In this document: piece after piece, positions 17,345 through 28,319 of the stretch | How positions within the stretch are numbered: the stretch's first letter is position 1 | Layout: each line of letters opens with the position of its first letter | IMG/VR virus record: IMGVR_UViG_3300022213_000020 | Location: 1 to 33,529 of that record | Length of the DNA: 33,529 nt | Strand: one strand, 5' to 3' | DNA from: a virus | The notes under the pieces: model-generated | The model's input: only the letters and a program-made list of their open reading frames with translations | Databases searched by the model: none | What the model was told of the DNA's origin: nothing | Made by a program: the position numbers and the translations under genes

Positions 17345-17623
17345 TTATTGGTTATTGCAAATATACTTTAATTTATTAAGTGTGGCTTCATACATCTCAT
17401 AAAACTTTTGAGGTTCTATGGTTTCAAATCCTTCAGACAGGGCAAAGTAGGCAGGTGCAAAGTTTTTTATCTCGTATTCGCCAATGTGTTCATAGAATCC
17501 AATTTTCATGTTATCATTGGCATTATCTGATACTATTTTATAGTATGTACATCCGTTACTTGCATAATAAGGGAGTGGTAACTCAACCTCTTGCGTGATT
17601 GTCTTTTTAATTGTTGCTTTCAT
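17345..17623 (-). CDS. Hypothetical protein
   Basis: 92 residues, overlapping the zinc-finger-like gene upstream by 17 bases and ending 12 bases before the recT ATG. The N-terminus is a basic beta-like stretch (KATIKKTITQEVELPLPYYA). The rest is acidic and aromatic (GFYEHIGEYEIKNFAPAYFALSEGFETIEP). I do not recognise it. It lies among small genes near recombination genes, as host-takeover or accessory proteins often do. The possible recT promoter is embedded in its last codons. Confidence 0.55.
   Translation of the reverse strand: MKATIKKTITQEVELPLPYYASNGCTYYKIVSDNANDNMKIGFYEHIGEYEIKNFAPAYFALSEGFETIEPQKFYEMYEATLNKLKYICNNQ
17358..17365 (-). promoter_or_regulatory. Possible promoter (TATATTTG box) for the recT-exonuclease pair
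   Basis: Read leftward, 17365-17358 is TATATTTG, a full match to the Bacteroidota TAnnTTTG box. It lies 25 bases before the recT ATG, a spacing like that of the other boxes in this window. I see no good TTTG/TTG element about 20 bp upstream, and the box falls within the preceding gene's last codons, so it could be chance. Confidence 0.35.
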
Positions 17624-17840
17624 TGTTTATTTTTATTTCAGTTATACATTCATTGCAATAGAATACTTCTTGGTCAGGATGGAGATCGTAATCGATAAAC
17701 AGTCCACCGCAATCGGGGTGTGTATATTCTCCGCATCCTTGACATTGTGGGTAATATAATCGTTTGAACTCTTCTTCATCGATGTTTGATTCAAACCAGT
17801 CATCAGAGCAGGACTGACCATTGGCGAGTAGATGGTTCAT
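17607..17840 (-). CDS. Small putative zinc-binding protein
   Basis: 77 residues with a compact Cys/His cluster: CQGCGEYTHPDCGG (about residues 33-46) and, after an acidic loop, FYCNECITEI (about 60-69). Two CxxC knuckles plus a His/Cys suggest one or two structural zinc sites. The start ATG overlaps the ribbon-helix-helix stop as ATGA. Such small zinc proteins in phage early regions often bind nucleic acid or host proteins. Its target is unknown. Confidence 0.6.
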   Translation of the reverse strand: MNHLLANGQSCSDDWFESNIDEEEFKRLYYPQCQGCGEYTHPDCGGLFIDYDLHPDQEVFYCNECITEIKINNESNN

Positions 17841-18422: not shown

Positions 18423-18664
18423 ACACGAAGGATTAAATATATCATGTTAGCAATAAACCCTGCACATAAGCCATAAACAACCGACCAAAACAGACCACAT
18501 CCTGCATTGTATGAATATATGCCCTGAATCCAGAACGCAAGGCAAAGTTCACAATCTATAGGTTTAATCGACTTTAGTTTATATGCCCATTTAATACGAG
18601 CAGGAATTCCGGTCAAGTGAACCCAAGTAAAGGTGGCGATGGAGATAAGGATAAGTGAGATCAT
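18407..18664 (-). CDS. Small integral membrane protein
   Basis: 85 residues with about three hydrophobic segments: near 1-15 (MISLILISIATFTWV), 40-62 (LCLAFWIQGIYSYNAGCGLFWSV) and 63-80 (VYGLCAGFIANMIYLILRVW). The motif DCELCLAFW resembles small phage membrane proteins I know from Bacteroidota phages. It shares one base with the glycosyltransferase stop, so it belongs to the glycan operon. It could anchor or assist glycan transfer, or be an inner-membrane exclusion protein. Neither can be shown here. Confidence 0.55.
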   Translation of the reverse strand: MISLILISIATFTWVHLTGIPARIKWAYKLKSIKPIDCELCLAFWIQGIYSYNAGCGLFWSVVYGLCAGFIANMIYLILRVWKLI

Positions 18665-19230
18665 CAGTATAGCTTATTATATGAGATAAAATTATATTGA
18701 TATATTGGTTTATCTATTTTATATTCTGTTTTAATCAATCCGCTTTCTTTTAGCTTCATGCAGAAATCAAAATCCTCACCATTACTTTTATTTGGAAAAC
18801 CAATCTGTAAAGATATTGATCGTTTCATTGGAGTAATATGATTAGGTGGTCTTAAAAATACCTCATTTCCACTTGACCAATCAGTCATATATTCCAAATC
18901 TTTAGAAATAAACCATTGTCTCTTATTTGCTCCATTTTCAGTATATGTTCCATTAATAGCGAAAGAATCTGGATTCTCTTCAATTCCTTTCAATATATCC
19001 TGAATTGCTGTATCACTAATCCAATCATCATCATCTATAAACCAAACATATTCACCACAAGCTGAATGTAATAAATCATTTCTTTTCTGTCCGGTTGTTT
19101 TAACTCCTATATCAGCCATGTCAGATATTACCTCAACATCTTCAGTTTTCTGTTTATTGATATGCTCAATTAATTTAGTATAAAAATTTAATCTTCGTGG
19201 AACTGTTGGAATTAATATAGATAGTTTCAT
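18664..19230 (-). CDS. Glycosyltransferase family 2-like (GT-A fold)
   Basis: 188 residues. KLSILIPTVPRRLNFYTKLIEHI is the first nucleotide-sugar-binding strand and helix, TTGQKRNDLL the second signature and YVWFIDDDDWISD (about 66-78) the metal-binding DxD motif. The C-terminal part (FPNKSNGEDFDFCMKLKESG) supplies the usual ED catalytic-base motif. The enzyme is short and single-domain, as phage-encoded ones often are. It is the last transferase of the six-gene glycan cassette and is noticeably AT-rich. Sugar and acceptor are unknown. Confidence 0.82.
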   Translation of the reverse strand: MKLSILIPTVPRRLNFYTKLIEHINKQKTEDVEVISDMADIGVKTTGQKRNDLLHSACGEYVWFIDDDDWISDTAIQDILKGIEENPDSFAINGTYTENGANKRQWFISKDLEYMTDWSSGNEVFLRPPNHITPMKRSISLQIGFPNKSNGEDFDFCMKLKESGLIKTEYKIDKPIYQYNFISYNKLY

Positions 19231-19892
19231 AAATTTTTATTCTTAAGAAGCACATCACCTTGATAATCACATTCAATATCAAAATCAGGTAACATTTTAA
19301 GTATATCATTTAGTCCTTTATCTCCTTTATATAAACCACCATTAGAATATTCAGTATAAAAATATCTTACATTCTTAAAAGTTTTTCTACCTCCTCTTAT
19401 TAGATTAGCTTCTGCTCCTTGAATATCCGCCCAAATGAAATCTATTATTTTATCTTTCAAATTATTTTCTTTAATAAATGAATCAAGTTTTACAGATTGA
19501 ATTTGTTTCTTTTCAAATGTCATATCCGGCCAGTAAATAAATACATTTTTTGGTTGATTGATTGATGAACTGCCATAATAATTCTCTACATTAATACCAT
19601 CAACAATTTTTTGTCCTCCGCTTTCATAAAAATCAACAAGACCATCTTTATTTCCAATAGCTTTATTTATTGGATAAAATTTACCATAGGGATAATGTTG
19701 TTTATATTCTACTATTTGATTGTATAATTTCTCGACAGGTTCAAAACCATAATAATCAAACTTTTTTTGTCTTGAATTAATTAAATTACATATTGTATTA
19801 GTGTGAAATCCATCACACATACCAAATTCAAAAAACAATAATTCATCTTTAGAATTAATTATTTCTTCTATGTATTCAAATATATCTTTCAT
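19227..19892 (-). CDS. FkbM-type methyltransferase
   Basis: 221 residues. LLFFEFGMCDGFHTNTICNLI is a glycine-motif variant (EFGMCDG in place of DxGxxxG) for S-adenosylmethionine binding. YYGFEPVEKLYNQIVE, INKAIGNKDGLVDFYESGG and IIDFIWADIQGAEANLIRGG follow the FkbM family order, with WADIQGAE in place of the usual IDxEG. It overlaps both neighbours by 4 bases. FkbM proteins commonly O-methylate sugars. The changed motifs may alter activity. AT-rich like its two neighbours. Confidence 0.78.
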   Translation of the reverse strand: MKDIFEYIEEIINSKDELLFFEFGMCDGFHTNTICNLINSRQKKFDYYGFEPVEKLYNQIVEYKQHYPYGKFYPINKAIGNKDGLVDFYESGGQKIVDGINVENYYGSSSINQPKNVFIYWPDMTFEKKQIQSVKLDSFIKENNLKDKIIDFIWADIQGAEANLIRGGRKTFKNVRYFYTEYSNGGLYKGDKGLNDILKMLPDFDIECDYQGDVLLKNKNL

Positions 19893-20497
19893 ATTGTCAT
19901 TATTATATTTTCTAAATTAATCAAAACTGGTTTCATATTAAACTTATTTCCGTATTCAATATATTTATCTAAATCCTTTCCGTTATATTCAACACATATC
20001 ATTTTTGTTTTTAATCTTTTCAAAGGCAGTTGTATCAATATATCATAATCATAACCTTCTGCATCAATACTAATAAAGTCAAACTTACTATATTGAACCA
20101 TATATAACCAATCTCTGAAAGTAAAGCAATTAACTGATGTTTTAATAAATTGCTCTCTTGTCCATCTCTTCGTTTCATCTTGCTTCAATGAACTTAACAA
20201 TGAATAATCTCCATTTCCTAAATGCTCTCCAGATTCATAAAAATCAAAATGTCCAGTTTTGTCAGAGATGGCACAATTGTAAATTCTTACTTTCTTAAAT
20301 TTCTCATAATTCTTAACTGCTTTCTCATAACTTATCATAGATGGTTCAATTAATGCTCCTTTCCAACCTTTTTCAGCTAATGCCCGAACATTAGAAAGAG
20401 TAATACCATCGTTCGCCCCAATGTCTAAAAATATCCCCTGACTCTGATTTGAAAAGTAATTCAGTATAACTTGTTCCTCGTTGTTCTGTGAATACAT
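19889..20497 (-). CDS. FkbM-type methyltransferase
   Basis: 202 residues. SQNNEEQVILNYF and IFLDIGANDGITLSNVRALAEKGWKGALIEP give the S-adenosylmethionine-binding motif and the acidic strand-2 end. IYNCAISDKTGHFDFYESG and FDFISIDAEGYDYDILIQLPL complete the standard FkbM pattern. All core motifs look intact, unlike the variant next door. Ends 4 bases inside the next gene. A methyl cap on a sugar chain built by the neighbouring transferases is the natural reading. Confidence 0.87.
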   Translation of the reverse strand: MYSQNNEEQVILNYFSNQSQGIFLDIGANDGITLSNVRALAEKGWKGALIEPSMISYEKAVKNYEKFKKVRIYNCAISDKTGHFDFYESGEHLGNGDYSLLSSLKQDETKRWTREQFIKTSVNCFTFRDWLYMVQYSKFDFISIDAEGYDYDILIQLPLKRLKTKMICVEYNGKDLDKYIEYGNKFNMKPVLINLENIIMTI

Positions 20498-20499
20498 AA

Positions 20500-21153
20500 T
20501 TAATTAATAAAGTTTTCATTTTTACGATTTCTATAATTTATTTCATCTTTGAAATACAATGATGGATGTTCATTTTTGGAATACTGTCCATCAAATTCTG
20601 CTTTTCCCCATGCCGGATGCTCATGGTTAAATATATGCAATGGAATATAGATATAACATCCTCTCATTTGTGCCACATCCTGTGCCTCGTTATCACAATA
20701 TACTGACTTGTAAGATGGATGATAAATGTATTTATCTCTCATAAAATAATCATAACCGATAATACTCATTGTGGCTAATCTGTCCTGATTCCCATCCGGG
20801 AAATGAATGAACTTGTCAAGATCGGTGAAGCTATCACGAATATCTTTATCAAATCCTTTTTTGATGAATACTTGGTCATCAGATACATTAACCAAAATAT
20901 CCCATTTGAACCTGACTCGTTCAATATCTCTATTAATAGCATCAATCTTATTTTCTGATTTACCGAATGCAATAACAATCTTTTCAAACTTTCCGGAACA
21001 CCAGTCATAAATATCGGGTGTTGTCATGTCATCCTCATCCAAAGTAATCAATATATTAAAGTTATCTGATTCAACATTATTGAAGATTGATTCCAATGTC
21101 TTGATGGCTCGTTGAGGTCTGCTCCTTGTAGTTAGTTTGAAGAGTATCTTCAT
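20500..21153 (-). CDS. Glycosyltransferase-like protein (GT-A type)
   Basis: 217 residues. KILFKLTTRSRPQRAIKTLESIF is a GT-A opening, FNILITLDEDDMTT and ILVNVSDDQVFIKKG give acidic pairs in the places of nucleotide-sugar and metal binding, and DNEAQDVAQMRGCYIYIP and NHEHPAWGKAEFD resemble the C-terminal region of small phage transferases. The gene before it overlaps by 4 bases and the one after starts 2 bases downstream. I am fairly sure of the fold but not of the family or sugar. Confidence 0.72.
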   Translation of the reverse strand: MKILFKLTTRSRPQRAIKTLESIFNNVESDNFNILITLDEDDMTTPDIYDWCSGKFEKIVIAFGKSENKIDAINRDIERVRFKWDILVNVSDDQVFIKKGFDKDIRDSFTDLDKFIHFPDGNQDRLATMSIIGYDYFMRDKYIYHPSYKSVYCDNEAQDVAQMRGCYIYIPLHIFNHEHPAWGKAEFDGQYSKNEHPSLYFKDEINYRNRKNENFIN

Positions 21154-21797
21154 GGCTTAAACTTTTTATGTATTGGTTGTTCTTTTAATTCCTCTTGAAA
21201 TATATTAAAGTTGTGCTGATAATTTTCTTGTTTCTTTGCATCAGTTATTGAACTTTCAATCTTTTTGTTGTAATCATGAGCAAATAAATAAGTAGGTAAT
21301 TTATCAGGCATAAGATAAGGTGATGTATTTAATCCTGCTTTATGAATCCTGTTAGAATATCCTGCGTGTTCAAATCCCCATCCAATGTATCTTGTATCCA
21401 TGTAACCAATCTCATTAACTGCTTTCTTTGTCATTGCCATAAATACACCACCACATTCTTTGTAGGTAGTAATGCCAATATGTTTCTTTCCCAATGGGAA
21501 ATGCATATTATCATTTAAGAATAAGAAATGATTCTCACCGGTATTCTCAAATGCTTCCATCAGATATTCAGTCCATAAATATTCAGAGGGATGACAATCA
21601 TCATCAAAAAGAAATATATAATCATTTGACTTTAGATGATGAAGGCACATATTCTTTGCGTATGCAACTCCCTTAAATTCCGCATCATTGTAAATGTAAA
21701 GATTAGAAATTGGACTAAATTTGTCCAATGCATCCAAGCATTCATCAAGTCGGTTCTTTCTATTCGGTGTGGTTGTTATGCCGATGCCTATGGTCAT
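21150..21797 (-). CDS. Glycosyltransferase family 2-like (GT-A fold)
   Basis: 215 residues. IGIGITTTPNRKNRLDECLDAL is the first binding motif, GVAYAKNMCLHHL and DYIFLFDDDCHPSEYLW (acidic triad at about 62-65) the DxD region, and CGGVFMAMTKKAVNEIGYMDTRYIGWGFEHAGYS the acceptor/base motif of GT2 and galactosyltransferase-like enzymes. It overlaps both neighbours by 4 bases. Key residues appear complete. Sugar donor unknown. Confidence 0.84.
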   Translation of the reverse strand: MTIGIGITTTPNRKNRLDECLDALDKFSPISNLYIYNDAEFKGVAYAKNMCLHHLKSNDYIFLFDDDCHPSEYLWTEYLMEAFENTGENHFLFLNDNMHFPLGKKHIGITTYKECGGVFMAMTKKAVNEIGYMDTRYIGWGFEHAGYSNRIHKAGLNTSPYLMPDKLPTYLFAHDYNKKIESSITDAKKQENYQHNFNIFQEELKEQPIHKKFKP

Positions 21798-23059
21798 AAT
21801 ATATCCTGATACATTTGTAATCTAATAGCTGTCCACTTCTCAAGGTTGTAATGTATATTGACATACTCTTGTATTTTACCAGCATAATCATCGACCATTT
21901 GCCGATTACCTATAAATTTCTTTACAGCTTTATACCATCCTTTTTGGTTGTCGTATGTTGCTACTTTGTAAACGGTATCGTTAGGAAACATTGAATAAGG
22001 TAAACAATCAGTAACAATAATAGCTTTTTTCTTTGCAGCCGCTTCGATAATTTTGAGTTCAGATTTGCAATTATTAAAAGCATTAGAACGCAAAGGAGCA
22101 AGTGAGATGTCAATAGTATCATAAATGGTAGCATATTGATTTATACTTTTTCCCCATACCCTACGGTAAGATTCTGGAGTATGGAAATCTGATTTAATTG
22201 TGTTCTGTAAATATCGTTTATGGTCATTTGATATCATCCGTTTGTTATCGGATAAAATATCCTCATATCGCAGATACTGACTTCTGTTCTGAATTTCATT
22301 TAACCTTGCCTTGTAGCATGGATTGTTTCCATACATATAAGCAGGATTGTTTTTGTGAAACTCTGCCACATGATGCTGAAAGTTATCTTCTAAATTAAAC
22401 CCACCTAAAACAAACTGATAATCCTTTAATGATTTATCTGAATATACATAACTGATAGACCTACTCATTAGTTCTAAATCACCTTGATGCCATAGTCCAC
22501 CAATCCATCCAAACCTTAACTTATCACTTTTCTCTGCTTTAGTGTTCCATTGTTCTTCCTGCATATCGATGCAGTTTGGGATTACTTCACCTTTTCCAAT
22601 AAAATTTCGAAGATGTTCAGTCGTTGTTGTAACGAGGTCAGCGTGTTCAATAGCTTGGCGTACATTAGCAATGTATTCCTTGTATGGTATTTGTCTTGAT
22701 TCATATTCGCTTAATTGTATTACTCGTTCCTGTTTATATTCTTTGCACTTTTGTAATAGCATTTTCTCCACAAAAACGCCATGATGCGATGGCAAATTGT
22801 AGTTATCATCAATATCAAATACCACTTTGCATCCGTTAGCATGACATCTGTCAATTATCTCCTTTGTTTTTCCTTTAATACTTATCTGCCTAATGAACTG
22901 AACAATGTCAAAGTATTGTAATTCAATATCACTTACCTTATCAAAATCATGAACTATTCTTACCTCGTTACCAGTAAGCCGATGCAATACCTTATGTGGC
23001 ACTATCTGCCTATGATATTGCAGACCTGTATCTCCGGTGACAACGAGTAGAATCTTCAT
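21794..23059 (-). CDS. Glycosyltransferase, GT-B fold (GT4-like)
   Basis: 421 residues, the first and largest enzyme of the cassette. Residues 1 to about 180 form the N-terminal Rossmann-like domain (KILLVVTGDTGLQYHRQIVPHKVL, DLVTTTTEHLRNFI, VIPNCID). LRFGWIGGLWHQGDLELM begins the C-terminal domain. DISLAPLRSNAFNNCKSELKIIEAAAKKKAIIVTD holds the E-x7-E-like donor-binding motif. The tRNA-like gene ends 14 bases upstream of its ATG, suggesting co-transcription. It likely starts or extends a glycan chain in the cytoplasm. Confidence 0.85.
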   Translation of the reverse strand: MKILLVVTGDTGLQYHRQIVPHKVLHRLTGNEVRIVHDFDKVSDIELQYFDIVQFIRQISIKGKTKEIIDRCHANGCKVVFDIDDNYNLPSHHGVFVEKMLLQKCKEYKQERVIQLSEYESRQIPYKEYIANVRQAIEHADLVTTTTEHLRNFIGKGEVIPNCIDMQEEQWNTKAEKSDKLRFGWIGGLWHQGDLELMSRSISYVYSDKSLKDYQFVLGGFNLEDNFQHHVAEFHKNNPAYMYGNNPCYKARLNEIQNRSQYLRYEDILSDNKRMISNDHKRYLQNTIKSDFHTPESYRRVWGKSINQYATIYDTIDISLAPLRSNAFNNCKSELKIIEAAAKKKAIIVTDCLPYSMFPNDTVYKVATYDNQKGWYKAVKKFIGNRQMVDDYAGKIQEYVNIHYNLEKWTAIRLQMYQDIL

Positions 23060-24579: not shown

Positions 24580-24716
24580 TTGTTTATTTTTAGATATTCT
24601 ACATTACTATATTTATGTTCTTCCTTATCAACTATTATCTGAACAGCATGATAAATAGATGAGGCAATTACACTATATGTTTTGCCTGATGGTGATTTAA
24701 TTTTGTATAGGTTCAT
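24576..24716 (-). CDS. 46-residue hypothetical protein
   Basis: Runs from ATG 24716 to a TGA that overlaps the nuclease start as ATGA. Its own ATG overlaps the stop of the preceding HTH gene in the same way. The product (MNLYKIKSPSGKTYSVIASS, then IYHAVQIIVDKEEHKYSNVE) looks like a small alpha/beta domain. Overlap at both ends makes it a likely real gene despite its size. Function unknown. Confidence 0.55.
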   Translation of the reverse strand: MNLYKIKSPSGKTYSVIASSIYHAVQIIVDKEEHKYSNVEYLKINK

Positions 24717-24871
24717 TTCAGTTGTTTTATTGGTTCAGATTCTTTTTTAATAAATTTCTTTCCGGCAATAGTAACTACTTTTAAGTAATTCTGTTTAATC
24801 CAATAATGCACATTACTAACAGATACCTGTTTATATCTTGCATATTGGCTAATTGTCATTAGGTTTTTCAT
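24713..24871 (-). CDS. 52-residue HTH protein, first gene of the leftward operon
   Basis: MTISQYARYKQVSVSNVHYW, then IKQNYLKVVTIAGKKFIKKE, matches the excisionase/MerR-type helix-turn-helix plus wing, as in the 23647-23847 protein. It lies 20 bases downstream of a strong leftward promoter and next to the palindrome at 24887. That position fits a Cro-like or autoregulating protein acting on the divergent promoters. It is the first gene transcribed leftward. Binding to the palindrome is inferred. Confidence 0.68.
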   Translation of the reverse strand: MKNLMTISQYARYKQVSVSNVHYWIKQNYLKVVTIAGKKFIKKESEPIKQLK

Positions 24872-24886
24872 TGTTAATAAAATTAT

Positions 24887-24900
24887 TTGTACAAATGTAC
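24887..24900. promoter_or_regulatory. Palindromic operator candidate in the switch region
   Basis: TTTGTACAAA (24887-24896) is a perfect 10-bp palindrome. With the following TGTAC it also forms GTAC-N4-GTAC. It covers the -33 element of the rightward promoter and part of the -7 box of the leftward promoter, so one bound protein could control both directions. This is the typical layout of a phage switch operator. Confidence 0.6.
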
Positions 24901-24918
24901 TAAATTTTTATATCTTCG
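24887..24918 (+). promoter_or_regulatory. Rightward early promoter
   Basis: TTTG at 24887-24890, 20 bases of spacer, then TATCTTCG at 24911-24918 (one base from TAnnTTTG). The spacing equals that of the late promoter at 28320. It would produce a roughly 130-base leader before the nuclease gene at 25058. Confidence 0.72.
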
Positions 24919-24923
24919 TGCAA
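24892..24923 (-). promoter_or_regulatory. Leftward early promoter
   Basis: Leftward, TTG at 24923-24921, 21 bases of spacer, then TACATTTG at 24899-24892, a full TAnnTTTG match, 20 bases before ATG 24871. It overlaps the rightward promoter almost completely, so the two are likely to be mutually exclusive. Confidence 0.72.
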
Positions 24924-25054
24924 GTTCTTTATGAGCAACTTTTATATACACTAAAAGTAAATGATTAATAATATTGCCCTGTGTGGGTTGGTGCTAATTA
25001 ATTTCTATGTTTAGTTAATTAGGTGTATCTCCAACTTGTGCAGGGTTTTTTTTT
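24922..25054 (+). ncRNA. Structured leader RNA (possible attenuator or stand-alone small RNA)
   Basis: From the predicted start just after TATCTTCG to the T-run, no gene is present but several stems are. ACTTTTA/TAAAAGT pairs at 24938-24944 with 24952-24958. An outer three-part stem is formed by CCCTG and GTTGG (24977-24991) with CCAAC and CAGGG (25031-25045). An inner stem CTAATTAA/TTAATTAG pairs at 24994-25001 with 25015-25022. The outer stem is followed by nine Ts. CAAGTT near the 5' end (24921-24926) can pair with AACTTG (25033-25038) in the outer stem, which would break the terminator. A ligand or protein-controlled attenuator or a small RNA are both possible. It matches no family I know. 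Confidence 0.6.
24977..25054 (+). terminator. Terminator-like hairpin directly before the early nuclease gene
   Basis: The outer stem (CCCTG/CAGGG and GTTGG/CCAAC, joined by a 5-by-5 region of G-U type pairs) is followed by T25046-T25054. The next gene's ATG starts only 3 bases later. A terminator with its T-run against a start codon makes sense only if read-through is regulated or if a short RNA is the main product. Confidence 0.68.
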
Positions 25055-25057
25055 CTT

Positions 25058-25669
25058 ATGATTGAAGAAGAATTTAAATTAAAACTTGTTTCAATTTTTG
25101 AAAATCATTTTAATGTAATGATTGAAGTTTGGAGTAAATGCAAAACAAAAAGAATTGATATTGTATTAACTCATAAAATATTAAAAGAAGTTTCTTTTGG
25201 TATTGAATGTAAAATACCAGATAGAAAAAGAGGTCAGCAAATTGGTGAATATGTAATACAAGCTAATCATTATTCTAAATTAGAATGGCAAGATTATAAT
25301 GGTTATTACAAAAAAATACCAATACTTATTTGTCCACCACTTTCATATAAATATTTTTTAATGAATGAAAAAACAATAGACATTAATGATACATCAAATT
25401 TAAAAATATCAAATATTAATAATTGTAATATTCATAATAAATGGCATCAAGATAGACATACTGAAAATAGTACCCACCATTCATTTAATGGATTTTTGTC
25501 TGCTTTTAATATTGGTGAAGTAAGAAAAAAATATAATAAATATTATTTTGTTTTTGCCAATCAAATATTATTTGATACATCTGAAAATATGAAATTTAGT
25601 AGAATATTTAAAAATAATATACATTTTAATAATTATAATAAATTAATTAAACGAATAAACAATGATTGA
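25058..25669 (+). CDS. PD-(D/E)XK-like nuclease, early gene
   Basis: 203 residues. RIDIVLTHKILKEVSFGIECKIP gives Asp34 and the Glu50-x-Lys52 pair, followed by a helix with GQQIGEYVIQANHYS, the PD-(D/E)XK arrangement. The C-terminal half is His/Asn-rich (NCNIHNKWHQDRHTENSTHH), with no recognised domain and very AT-rich codons. It is the first gene rightward of the switch and overlaps the primase by 8 bases. A role in host DNA breakdown or replication-linked cleavage is possible. It could also be a diverged resolvase. Substrate unknown. Confidence 0.68.
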   Translation: MIEEEFKLKLVSIFENHFNVMIEVWSKCKTKRIDIVLTHKILKEVSFGIECKIPDRKRGQQIGEYVIQANHYSKLEWQDYNGYYKKIPILICPPLSYKYFLMNEKTIDINDTSNLKISNINNCNIHNKWHQDRHTENSTHHSFNGFLSAFNIGEVRKKYNKYYFVFANQILFDTSENMKFSRIFKNNIHFNNYNKLIKRINND

Positions 25670-26543
25670 ATTTAACTACTACCCGGCAGATATTAAGAAA
25701 GCCGAACCACTTGGTAAAATTTCTTTGCAGTATTTCATTGACTCTGTTCGGTATCCTAAACCTCACATTATTCAAATCTTTGAACAGATTAGGATTGCGG
25801 AACAAAATAAAGATCAGGCAAGAAAATCAGAACTGAAAACTAAACTGGTATCATTTACACCATGTGTATTGATAGATAAGATACGCAACTATAACAATAT
25901 ACTATCATGGACTGGGCTTATGGTTCTTGATTTTGACCATTTAGATTCTCCTGAATATGCAGAAGAATTTAAGCAGTATCTATTTAATGAATATAAATTC
26001 ATAATTGCATCATGGTTATCAGCTTCAAGGCATGGAGTCAGAGCATTCGTAAACATTCCAATCTGCACATCAACTGATGAATTCAAATCTTATTTTTTAG
26101 GCATTAAAGAAAAATTGTTTAAGTATAAAGGATTCGATATTGCACCTCAAAATTGTGTCCTGCCTTTATTTTATTCTATTGATGAGAAAATTCTTCATAG
26201 ATTTGATGCCCTTCAATTTAAAACTAAACATAATCCAATAATAAAACCTATTGTAAAACAATATATAATTCAAGACAAAACCAATATAATCGAAAAAATA
26301 ATTCTAAATAAAATTAATGTTATTGTCGATAACGGACATCCTCAACTTCGTGCTGCTGCTTATCTTCTCGGTGGTTATGTTGGTGCAAGATATATCGACC
26401 ATGATTATGCAATTACAATGCTTCACAGAATGATTGAATGCAATGCTTATCTATCACAGAAGCAATCAATCTATAAAAAAACTGCAATCACAATGATTAA
26501 TCAAGGAATTTATCAACCTGTATATTTAGAAAATTATGAATAA
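25662..26543 (+). CDS. VirE_N/BT4734-type primase-like protein
   Basis: 293 residues. LVSFTPCVLIDKI, then NNILSWTGLMVLDFDHLD (Asp90 and Asp92) and IIASWLSASRHGVRAFVNIPI (Ser121, Arg123, His124), is the BT4734/VirE N-terminal pattern related to archaeo-eukaryotic primases. Residues about 225-285 (HPQLRAAAYLLGGYVGARY, then MLHRMIECNAYLSQKQSIY) look like a primase C-terminal helical domain. With the next gene, an SF3-type helicase, it forms a primase-helicase unit next to the putative origin. Overlaps both neighbours by 8 bases. Confidence 0.82.
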   Translation: MIEFNYYPADIKKAEPLGKISLQYFIDSVRYPKPHIIQIFEQIRIAEQNKDQARKSELKTKLVSFTPCVLIDKIRNYNNILSWTGLMVLDFDHLDSPEYAEEFKQYLFNEYKFIIASWLSASRHGVRAFVNIPICTSTDEFKSYFLGIKEKLFKYKGFDIAPQNCVLPLFYSIDEKILHRFDALQFKTKHNPIIKPIVKQYIIQDKTNIIEKIILNKINVIVDNGHPQLRAAAYLLGGYVGARYIDHDYAITMLHRMIECNAYLSQKQSIYKKTAITMINQGIYQPVYLENYE

Positions 26544-28095
26544 ATTTATTAAAGAAGAAAATAATGTTCTGCTGAATCCTGTTGACTGGTTCAACTTCTA
26601 TGGATCATTCGTAAGTATATTTGAGAATATACGAGATAAGACAATTAAATCAGAAACTGAAATTTGTCTTTATAACCCAAAGAAACCTGATTCGAAAGAT
26701 TTGTCTGAACCTACATTCATACTTAAAAATGGATTGGTTGAGGTAAAGAAATTAAATGAGTTTGATATACCAAAAGGACAAAAAGTGTCCAAATTTATGC
26801 TACTCACAGCAGTTAAATTCAAAGGAGATTATTTCAATGCAATGTCTTATGTGTCTTATCAACTTCAAAAAAATGAAATACCATACATACGAGTTGGTGT
26901 AGATTATTTCAAAGTGATTAATAAAAAAGACAGATACGGAAGCGAAGCACAAACACTTAAAGCATGGAAGAAGGATGAAATTAAACAGGATCATTCAAAA
27001 CAATTAATTCCATACATCTTTAAGTTTGATGACTTTTGCCTGATTCCTGATAATATTAATTATCAACCTTCCAATAATAACTGCTATAATCTTTATTCAA
27101 AGTTCATGCACCAACCATCTGATATTGATGTTAAGTTTAATGACTTACCAAATACAATGGAAGTAATGAATCATATATTCGGTGAACAGGTAATGCTCGG
27201 ACTTCAGTATCTTAAAGTTCTTTATGAATATCCTAAACAAATTCTCCCGGTGCTTGTACTTGTTTCAACTGAAAGAGAAACTGGCAAGACAACATTTCTT
27301 AATTGGATGTCAATGATATTCGGGAACAACTCTGTATTAATATCTCCTGATGAACTTACACATTCATTCAATTCATCCTATGCCACAAAAAACATTGTGA
27401 TGGTGGATGAAACAATAATTGAGAAATCAACATCCGTAGAGAAACTTAAATCACTTGCAACAGCTAAAAGTATTTCCGTTCAACAAAAGTTTGTCAGCAG
27501 CTATTCAATTCCTTTTTATGGCAAAGTAATCATTTGCACCAACAAGGAAAAGGACTTTATGAAGATTGATGAGGAAGAAATTAGGTTTTGGATTCGTAAG
27601 ATAAACCCCATCACAGGAGCAAAGAATACCAACATCGAATCTGACCTTTATAACGAGATACCTAAATTACTTAAATACCTTGAATCCATGCCGGATGTCG
27701 ATTTTACTAAATCTCGGATGGTTTTTACTGCCGAACAGATAAAAACTAATTCACTCAAAGAAGTGAAGGAAGAAAGCAAGTCATCCATACGCAAAGACAT
27801 TGAATATCTGATAGATGACGTATTTAATAACAATGATTCAATAGATATTTTTTATGCAACACCGAAAGATATTAAGGATCAGTGGTTTTTAAGAAATTCA
27901 AATATATCTATCTCATACATTTCCAAGATATTAAAGGAAGAAATGAAGCTAATTCCTGAAAATATGATGCGATATAACAAGTTTGGAGAAAATGACATTG
28001 CAAAGATTTCTGGAAAGCCATATAAATTCGTGAGAAAAACTCAACGCATTCAAATTGAATCAATTGACAATATTGACTACACTCCTCCGTTCTAA
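26536..28095 (+). CDS. SF3-type replicative helicase
   Basis: 519 residues. Residues 1-200 form an N-terminal domain of unknown fold. The helicase core follows: VSTERETGKTTFLNW (Walker A, Gly250-Lys251-Thr252), NIVMVDETII (Walker B, Asp291-Glu292), KVIICTNKEKDF (sensor Asn336) and EEIRFWIRKI (Arg finger candidates 350 and 354). The C-terminal 120 residues resemble a winged-helix DNA-binding region (WFLRNSNISISYISKILKEEM). It unwinds DNA for replication, together with the primase-like protein before it and the repeats just after it. Confidence 0.85.
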   Translation: MNKFIKEENNVLLNPVDWFNFYGSFVSIFENIRDKTIKSETEICLYNPKKPDSKDLSEPTFILKNGLVEVKKLNEFDIPKGQKVSKFMLLTAVKFKGDYFNAMSYVSYQLQKNEIPYIRVGVDYFKVINKKDRYGSEAQTLKAWKKDEIKQDHSKQLIPYIFKFDDFCLIPDNINYQPSNNNCYNLYSKFMHQPSDIDVKFNDLPNTMEVMNHIFGEQVMLGLQYLKVLYEYPKQILPVLVLVSTERETGKTTFLNWMSMIFGNNSVLISPDELTHSFNSSYATKNIVMVDETIIEKSTSVEKLKSLATAKSISVQQKFVSSYSIPFYGKVIICTNKEKDFMKIDEEEIRFWIRKINPITGAKNTNIESDLYNEIPKLLKYLESMPDVDFTKSRMVFTAEQIKTNSLKEVKEESKSSIRKDIEYLIDDVFNNNDSIDIFYATPKDIKDQWFLRNSNISISYISKILKEEMKLIPENMMRYNKFGENDIAKISGKPYKFVRKTQRIQIESIDNIDYTPPF

Positions 28096-28098
28096 AAT

Positions 28099-28297
28099 GC
28101 ATTTACGATTTACACTCCATTTACACTCCATTTACATTATATATATATATATATATTATTAATAATTAATAAGTTATATATATATTATAGAGAAAACGTA
28201 AATCGTAAATCGTAAAACAGGAAAAAGTTTTGAAATTCAAAAAATGGAAAAAATGATTCTAATAGTTTTGAAAACAGCATTTACATTTACGATTTAC
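28099..28297. other. Putative replication origin: 13-bp repeats around TA-rich DNA
   Basis: ATTTACGATTTAC occurs at 28101-28113, inverted at 28198-28210, and again at 28285-28297. Shorter ATTTAC units with ACTCC spacers extend the first cluster to 28135, and further GTAAATC and ATTTAC units extend the others. Between the first two copies lie 19 bases (28138-28156) and 11 bases (28175-28185) of alternating T and A plus other AT-only DNA, a good DNA-unwinding element. It follows the helicase gene and precedes the late promoter, and contains no gene. Origin function is inferred. Confidence 0.72.
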
Positions 28298-28319
28298 ATT
28301 TAAAATTGTTAAAAAATAA

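Follow-up and report, generated by a model that had tools for sequence, protein, structure and literature searches.

Organisation of the leader region

The stretch of DNA analysed here (the window) comprises positions 1 to 33,529 of the IMG/VR virus record IMGVR_UViG_3300022213_000020. Directly upstream of its replication genes it carries an untranslated leader, which is predicted to fold into a 5' hairpin followed by an intrinsic terminator, with a segment K in the loop of the former and an exactly complementary segment K' within the latter. On balance, we favour the reading that this leader attenuates the replication operon by conditional termination, and that in it the loop-loop (kissing) pairing of K and K' serves as a specificity tag, in a manner resembling phage P4 CI RNA and pT181 attenuators. 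The features of the locus are listed below; hairpins are those of the minimum free energy (MFE) fold.

24885-24896, no strand: palindrome ATTTGTACAAAT, overlapping the -33 element and kept in the nearest relative, L003; possible operator
24886-24918, + strand: Bacteroidota-type promoter (TTTG at 24886-24889, 21-nucleotide (nt) spacer, TATCTTCG at 24911-24918)
24924-24931, + strand: GTTCTTTA, near the predicted 5' end of the transcript
24924-24936, + strand: weak first hairpin GTTC/GAGC, not conserved in relatives
24938-24958, + strand: hairpin P1 of 7 base pairs (bp) (24938-24944/24952-24958) with the loop TATACAC
24946-24951, + strand: K, loop segment ATACAC, complementary to K'; its place is conserved in relatives with other sequences
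24976-25046, + strand: terminator hairpin; equivalent stems covary in relatives
25023-25028, + strand: K', GTGTAT, unpaired in the MFE fold within an 8-nt bulge 3' of stem P3 (25023-25030); complementary to K
25046-25054, + strand: run of nine Ts, the end of the intrinsic terminator
25058-25669, + strand: first operon gene, 203 amino acids (aa), without Pfam or PHROG match
25662-26543, + strand: BT4734-like/VirE-N primase-type gene (PF08800, phrog_23402)
26536-28095, + strand: DUF5906/VapE-like helicase gene (profile match)

The promoter, which fits the Bacteroidota consensus, places the 5' end of the transcript probably near 24923-24926, and TAnnTTTG occurs at the equivalent position upstream of nearly all related leaders. 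The terminator consists of an outer stem P2 of 16 bp (24976-24991/25031-25046) and an inner stem P3 of 10 bp (24994-25003/25013-25022), the latter including a perfect 8-bp part, CTAATTAA (24994-25001) paired with TTAATTAG (25015-25022); the start codon ATG 25058 begins 3 nt past the T-run. The leader fold has a predicted energy of -32.6 kcal/mol (z -2.85), and one of 200 shuffled sequences was equally stable. The leader is flanked upstream by a divergent gene, so that the terminator would act only on RNA from its own promoter. This divergent small HTH_17-like gene (24713-24871) adjoins the palindrome ATTTGTACAAAT, and the two may constitute a repressor and its operator.

The original prediction, made from the window alone, had placed the inner stem, the long outer stem, the nine Ts and the start codon correctly, as both sequence and folding confirmed. 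Its single early hairpin proved to be two, the weak one and P1. It had also proposed that CAAGTT near the 5' end pairs with AACTTG in the terminator stem as a switch. Both motifs exist (at 24921 and 25033); CAAGTT begins no later than the predicted 5' terminus of the transcript, and AACTTG sits in the outer stem. Their pairing is not conserved, and we rejected it because L003 lacks it. The conserved long-range contact, overlooked at that time, is by sequence comparison the loop-loop pairing, which is compatible with the terminator.

A family of leaders with kissing loops

In the window, K and K' are complementary at 6 of 6 positions, so that a kissing pseudoknot could form; by chance alone, the two loops would match in this way with a probability of 0.003-0.004. 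L003 lacks the first gene of the window, and its leader differs widely in sequence, yet the elements come in the same order: promoter, 5' hairpin, a hairpin that leads into a U-run, and ATG. There, the loop ATCCAC faces the terminator bulge GTGGAT, which differs from the ATACAC and GTGTAT of the window by one compensated base pair.

Relatives, all of them leaders on uncultured phage contigs, were collected by helicase search, primase alignment, a DNA pattern free of any K requirement (K-free) and a search with the first gene. Folding covered 57 distinct leaders, among which 26 K sequences occur, each with its exact complement K' within the terminator. A GC-rich hairpin followed immediately by a U-run, the anatomy of an intrinsic terminator, was found in the window and in the 57 leaders. 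Of 441 nt each, unconstrained MFE folding of these 57 left 397 open in K and 415 in K'. Two designs were distinguished: in most leaders K' forms part of the inner hairpin's apical loop, whereas in the window, L003 and L038-L045 it lies in a bulge 3' of the inner hairpin. The similarity of some K to the letters GGTTCGA of the tRNA T-arm was set aside, as 26 different K exist.

Part of the catalogue was obtained with a detector that required K and is therefore biased; the K-free pattern scan, K-unconstrained folding and a covariance model without K were used as checks. At its strictest setting the detector returned 59 plus-strand matches; dinucleotide shuffles gave 5 and the minus strand 17. K' was present in every complete match of the K-free scan (in one subfamily, two further matches run off the end of the stretch, which precluded a check of K'), and the search with the first gene supplied a new test set with K GTCGTCG and K' CGACGAC. 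The K-blind covariance model, built from 28 leaders, recovered L004, L021, L131 and L159 at the element; it missed the window, which is placed in the family by its anatomy and by L003.

Covariation was assessed in an alignment of 28 distinct leaders by 30 pairs (840 cells). Structural cells were paired in 99.8% of cases, versus at most 47% in slid controls, and double changes were found in 163 cells, against a shuffle mean of 52.6 and with none of 500 shuffles as high. In the K helix, four of eight pairs carried double changes, all cells were paired and none was broken. P2 and P3 contain G-U pairs, which suggests a structure of RNA rather than of DNA. Further cases lie outside this alignment: L026 and L028 differ in 8 of 104 columns, four of which make up two compensated K pairs; L005 and L009 differ by a matched one-base indel in K and K'; and in the pairs L065/L068, L038/L039 and L144/L148, K and K' are altered together. 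Two loops joined by compensatory covariation, by which a kissing-loop RNA is recognised, were thus found for the family, and the kissing fold very probably exists in it. The prediction was to be abandoned if related phages showed no compensatory changes in the stems, and the covariation analysis found such changes. Its wider proposal, an attenuator or a short phage RNA, is consistent with the comparative evidence, the CAAGTT/AACTTG switch apart. It could name no riboswitch or phage RNA that the leader resembles; no Rfam family matched.

Discrete loop types

In one subfamily, the K-free pattern retrieved only three K sequences, GATTCCAC, GGTCTCAC and GGTTCGAC, on 13, 18 and 16 distinct stretches, respectively. 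They differ from one another by two or three bases, and K is invariant inside each type although P2 and P3 vary. The predicted energy of K-K' pairing is -10.3 to -12.6 kcal/mol within a type versus -1.0 to -5.7 kcal/mol across types. On the tree of the adjacent gene the three types are distributed as if at random (20 changes versus a shuffled mean of 21.2). A search covering 2.5 kb upstream and 5 kb downstream revealed no gene that goes with K type. In ten near-complete genomes the own K octamer is confined to the leader, and own K and K' occur once each; any trans partner encoded by the phage would therefore be the leader RNA itself.

Position relative to replication genes

In 45 leaders, 3-21 nt separate the last T of the run from the start codon of the first gene. 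Five values of 136-138 nt are outliers in appearance only, since there a short first open reading frame fell under the 45-aa limit. As no promoter fits between terminator and start codon, read-through appears to be obligatory. The first genes are of many unrelated kinds, and the same leader types precede either of two unrelated replication modules, the VirE-type one or one of DUF6291 and DnaB-type genes; the leader therefore seems to serve replication operons as such. Relatives of the first gene of the window, likewise preceded by a kissing leader, are carried by L246-L250. In these, the genes upstream end in a further terminator of the ordinary kind (GGCACGTG...), placed immediately before the leader promoter, which it insulates.

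From the promoter type and the primase relatives in Flavobacterium and Cellulophaga phages, we infer a host within Bacteroidota. Searches of phage records gave no real match to the element or to the DUF6291 protein, and a weak partial match alone to the helicase; in the bacterial genomes searched, the primase was found in one contig only. In Flavobacterium phage FPSV-S1 (L090; 32023-31979, - strand) an intergenic strong terminator has a possible 6-nt kissing partner, which is probably due to chance.

Behind the helicase gene, 28099-28301 contains the repeats ATTTACGATTTAC and GTAAATCGTAAAT and two copies of ATTTACACTCC around a TATATA-rich stretch, and looks like an iteron-type replication origin. 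Elsewhere in this 33-kb phage, a run of glycosyltransferase-like and FkbM methyltransferase genes (18664-23059, - strand) perhaps modifies sugars of the virion or of the host surface, and a cysteine-rich protein of 77 aa (17607-17840, - strand) has a weak match to the PHD finger.

Proposed mechanism and alternative explanations

That the leader attenuates its operon is quite likely. The promoter would yield a leader of about 130 nt, in which the loop of P1 exposes K and the intrinsic terminator (P2/P3 and U-run) exposes K'; only those polymerases that pass this conditional or partial terminator would transcribe the replication operon. The K-K' contact, conserved as pairing rather than as sequence, would set the outcome. 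In the mode that we consider most likely, self-recognition between leader RNAs of the same type, in cis and, as soon as enough of the short terminated RNA has accumulated, also in trans, would raise termination and limit early transcription of the replication genes. Action in trans, argued by analogy, is a step that we put forward tentatively, at somewhat less than even chances. Comparison of the leaders shows the stems at RNA level, the kissing pairing, the terminator anatomy, the position and the discreteness of types; termination in the cell, the direction of the effect and action in trans we infer.

Several observations weigh against this reading. The contact in the window is just 6 bp (-4.8 kcal/mol), with L003 as the one near relative. 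No recognisable element was present in at least five related lineages (L031, L052, L057, L079 and L156), nor a clear one in the isolates phi18:2, lotta8-2 and FPSV-S1. Since the hairpins of K and K' can both form, kissing in cis need not exclude the terminator, and, as it leaves the terminator intact, the leader is, on its predicted fold, not a classic two-state attenuator. The type of replication module is shuffled on the adjacent-gene tree just as K is, and the random distribution of K may thus reflect merely general recombination. The ten near-complete genomes hold no second site for own K or K'. No antisense gene was found, and no conserved reverse promoter was seen by inspection of the leader sequences, which was not a systematic test.

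The main rival is a protein-dependent switch acting in cis only, in which an antitermination protein of phage or host (LoaP/UpxY-, N- or Q-like) binds the kissing fold and permits read-through, and K drifts neutrally with compensation. Specialised NusG antiterminators (UpxY) occur in Bacteroidota, a kissing fold requires no fixed sequence, and GTTCTTTA, which we presume to be boxA-like, lies near the 5' end in the window, L003 and L060. However, this sequence, a possible counterpart of the boxA that a lambda nut-type site combines with a boxB hairpin and an N-like protein, was found only in the window, L003 and L060/L063 and is missing from most other subfamilies. No gene in the intervals searched follows K type, and neutral drift predicts a continuum of K, whereas the three types are discrete, with zero variation within a type and variable P2/P3. 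We therefore hold this explanation to be unlikely, although it is the strongest competitor.

The distance from U-run to ATG is very short and conserved, as would be expected of a 5' untranslated region in which hairpin and U-rich tract act on ribosomes, for translation or stability of the mRNA, rather than on polymerase. Nevertheless, every subfamily retains the arrangement typical of an intrinsic terminator, a GC-rich stem with a U-run directly behind it, which makes such a role improbable. Slightly less probable still is a stable small RNA, either a 6S-like decoy or a sponge for a host RNA or RNA polymerase, with leaky read-through into the operon. Its own promoter, strong terminator and defined fold of about 90-135 nt would suit such an RNA, but neither 6S nor any other Rfam family matched, a fixed host target is unlikely in view of the variability of K, and the start codon follows closely behind the terminator in many unrelated contexts, which suggests that it is the downstream gene that is controlled. 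An element acting as DNA, for instance an origin of replication or an inverted repeat bound by protein, would fit the adjoining replication genes and is nonetheless most improbable, given the G-U pairs and single-strand loop complementarity, the better origin candidate at 28099-28301, and the fact that the leader element invariably follows close behind a promoter and, in ten records, occurs a single time per genome.

Comparison with known systems

With Rfam models (c4, 6S-flavo, riboswitches) no score exceeded the gathering cut-off, and matches at loose thresholds were dismissed as chance. In P4 immunity (CI RNA; seqA/seqB/seqC), an untranslated leader before the replication genes has internal complementary segments, the RNA-RNA pairing of which is tied to premature termination (PMC4825925). 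The present leader likewise lies upstream of replication genes, but P4 differs in having two target sites (seqA and seqC) for its one guide segment, a processed CI RNA and a role in lysogeny; here each genome has one K and one K', the former exposed in the loop of the 5' hairpin and the latter within the terminator. No PF00589 integrase was found in 16 related records, some of which may be incomplete; with that and the primase found in a single bacterial record, a temperate life style as in P4 was not recovered. In pT181 attenuators kissing hairpins control termination, and the loop sequence gives specificity with orthogonal types (PMC3753616); their partner is a separate antisense RNA, whereas here both loops are on one sense RNA.

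The c4 antisense RNA is likewise a phage regulatory RNA using complementary segments; its model (RF01695) matched neither the window nor 18 related loci, and its host phylum differs from the one here (PMC2864571). Leaders of LoaP/UpxY systems, UpxY being found in Bacteroidota, also control long operons through termination; unlike these systems, the kissing leaders have no gene linked to K type nearby. Variable kissing loops are, to our knowledge, not described for LoaP/UpxY leaders.

Implications

In phages that do not integrate, K types could represent groups of RNA incompatibility or superinfection exclusion, a speculation that we regard as rather unlikely. The short leader RNA of a resident would shut off the replication operon of a newcomer with the same K, and negative frequency-dependent selection would maintain several orthogonal types. 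No account of the element was found in the literature covered, which left out most subscription papers and one paper on 224 motifs. If the proposed reading is true, the leaders would constitute an undescribed family of phage RNAs in a host group with few known phage regulatory RNAs. With their discrete, mutually orthogonal loop types, they would make the idea of an identity coded by RNA in phages concrete and testable, and kissing attenuators that are orthogonal by nature might also find use as regulators in Bacteroidota.
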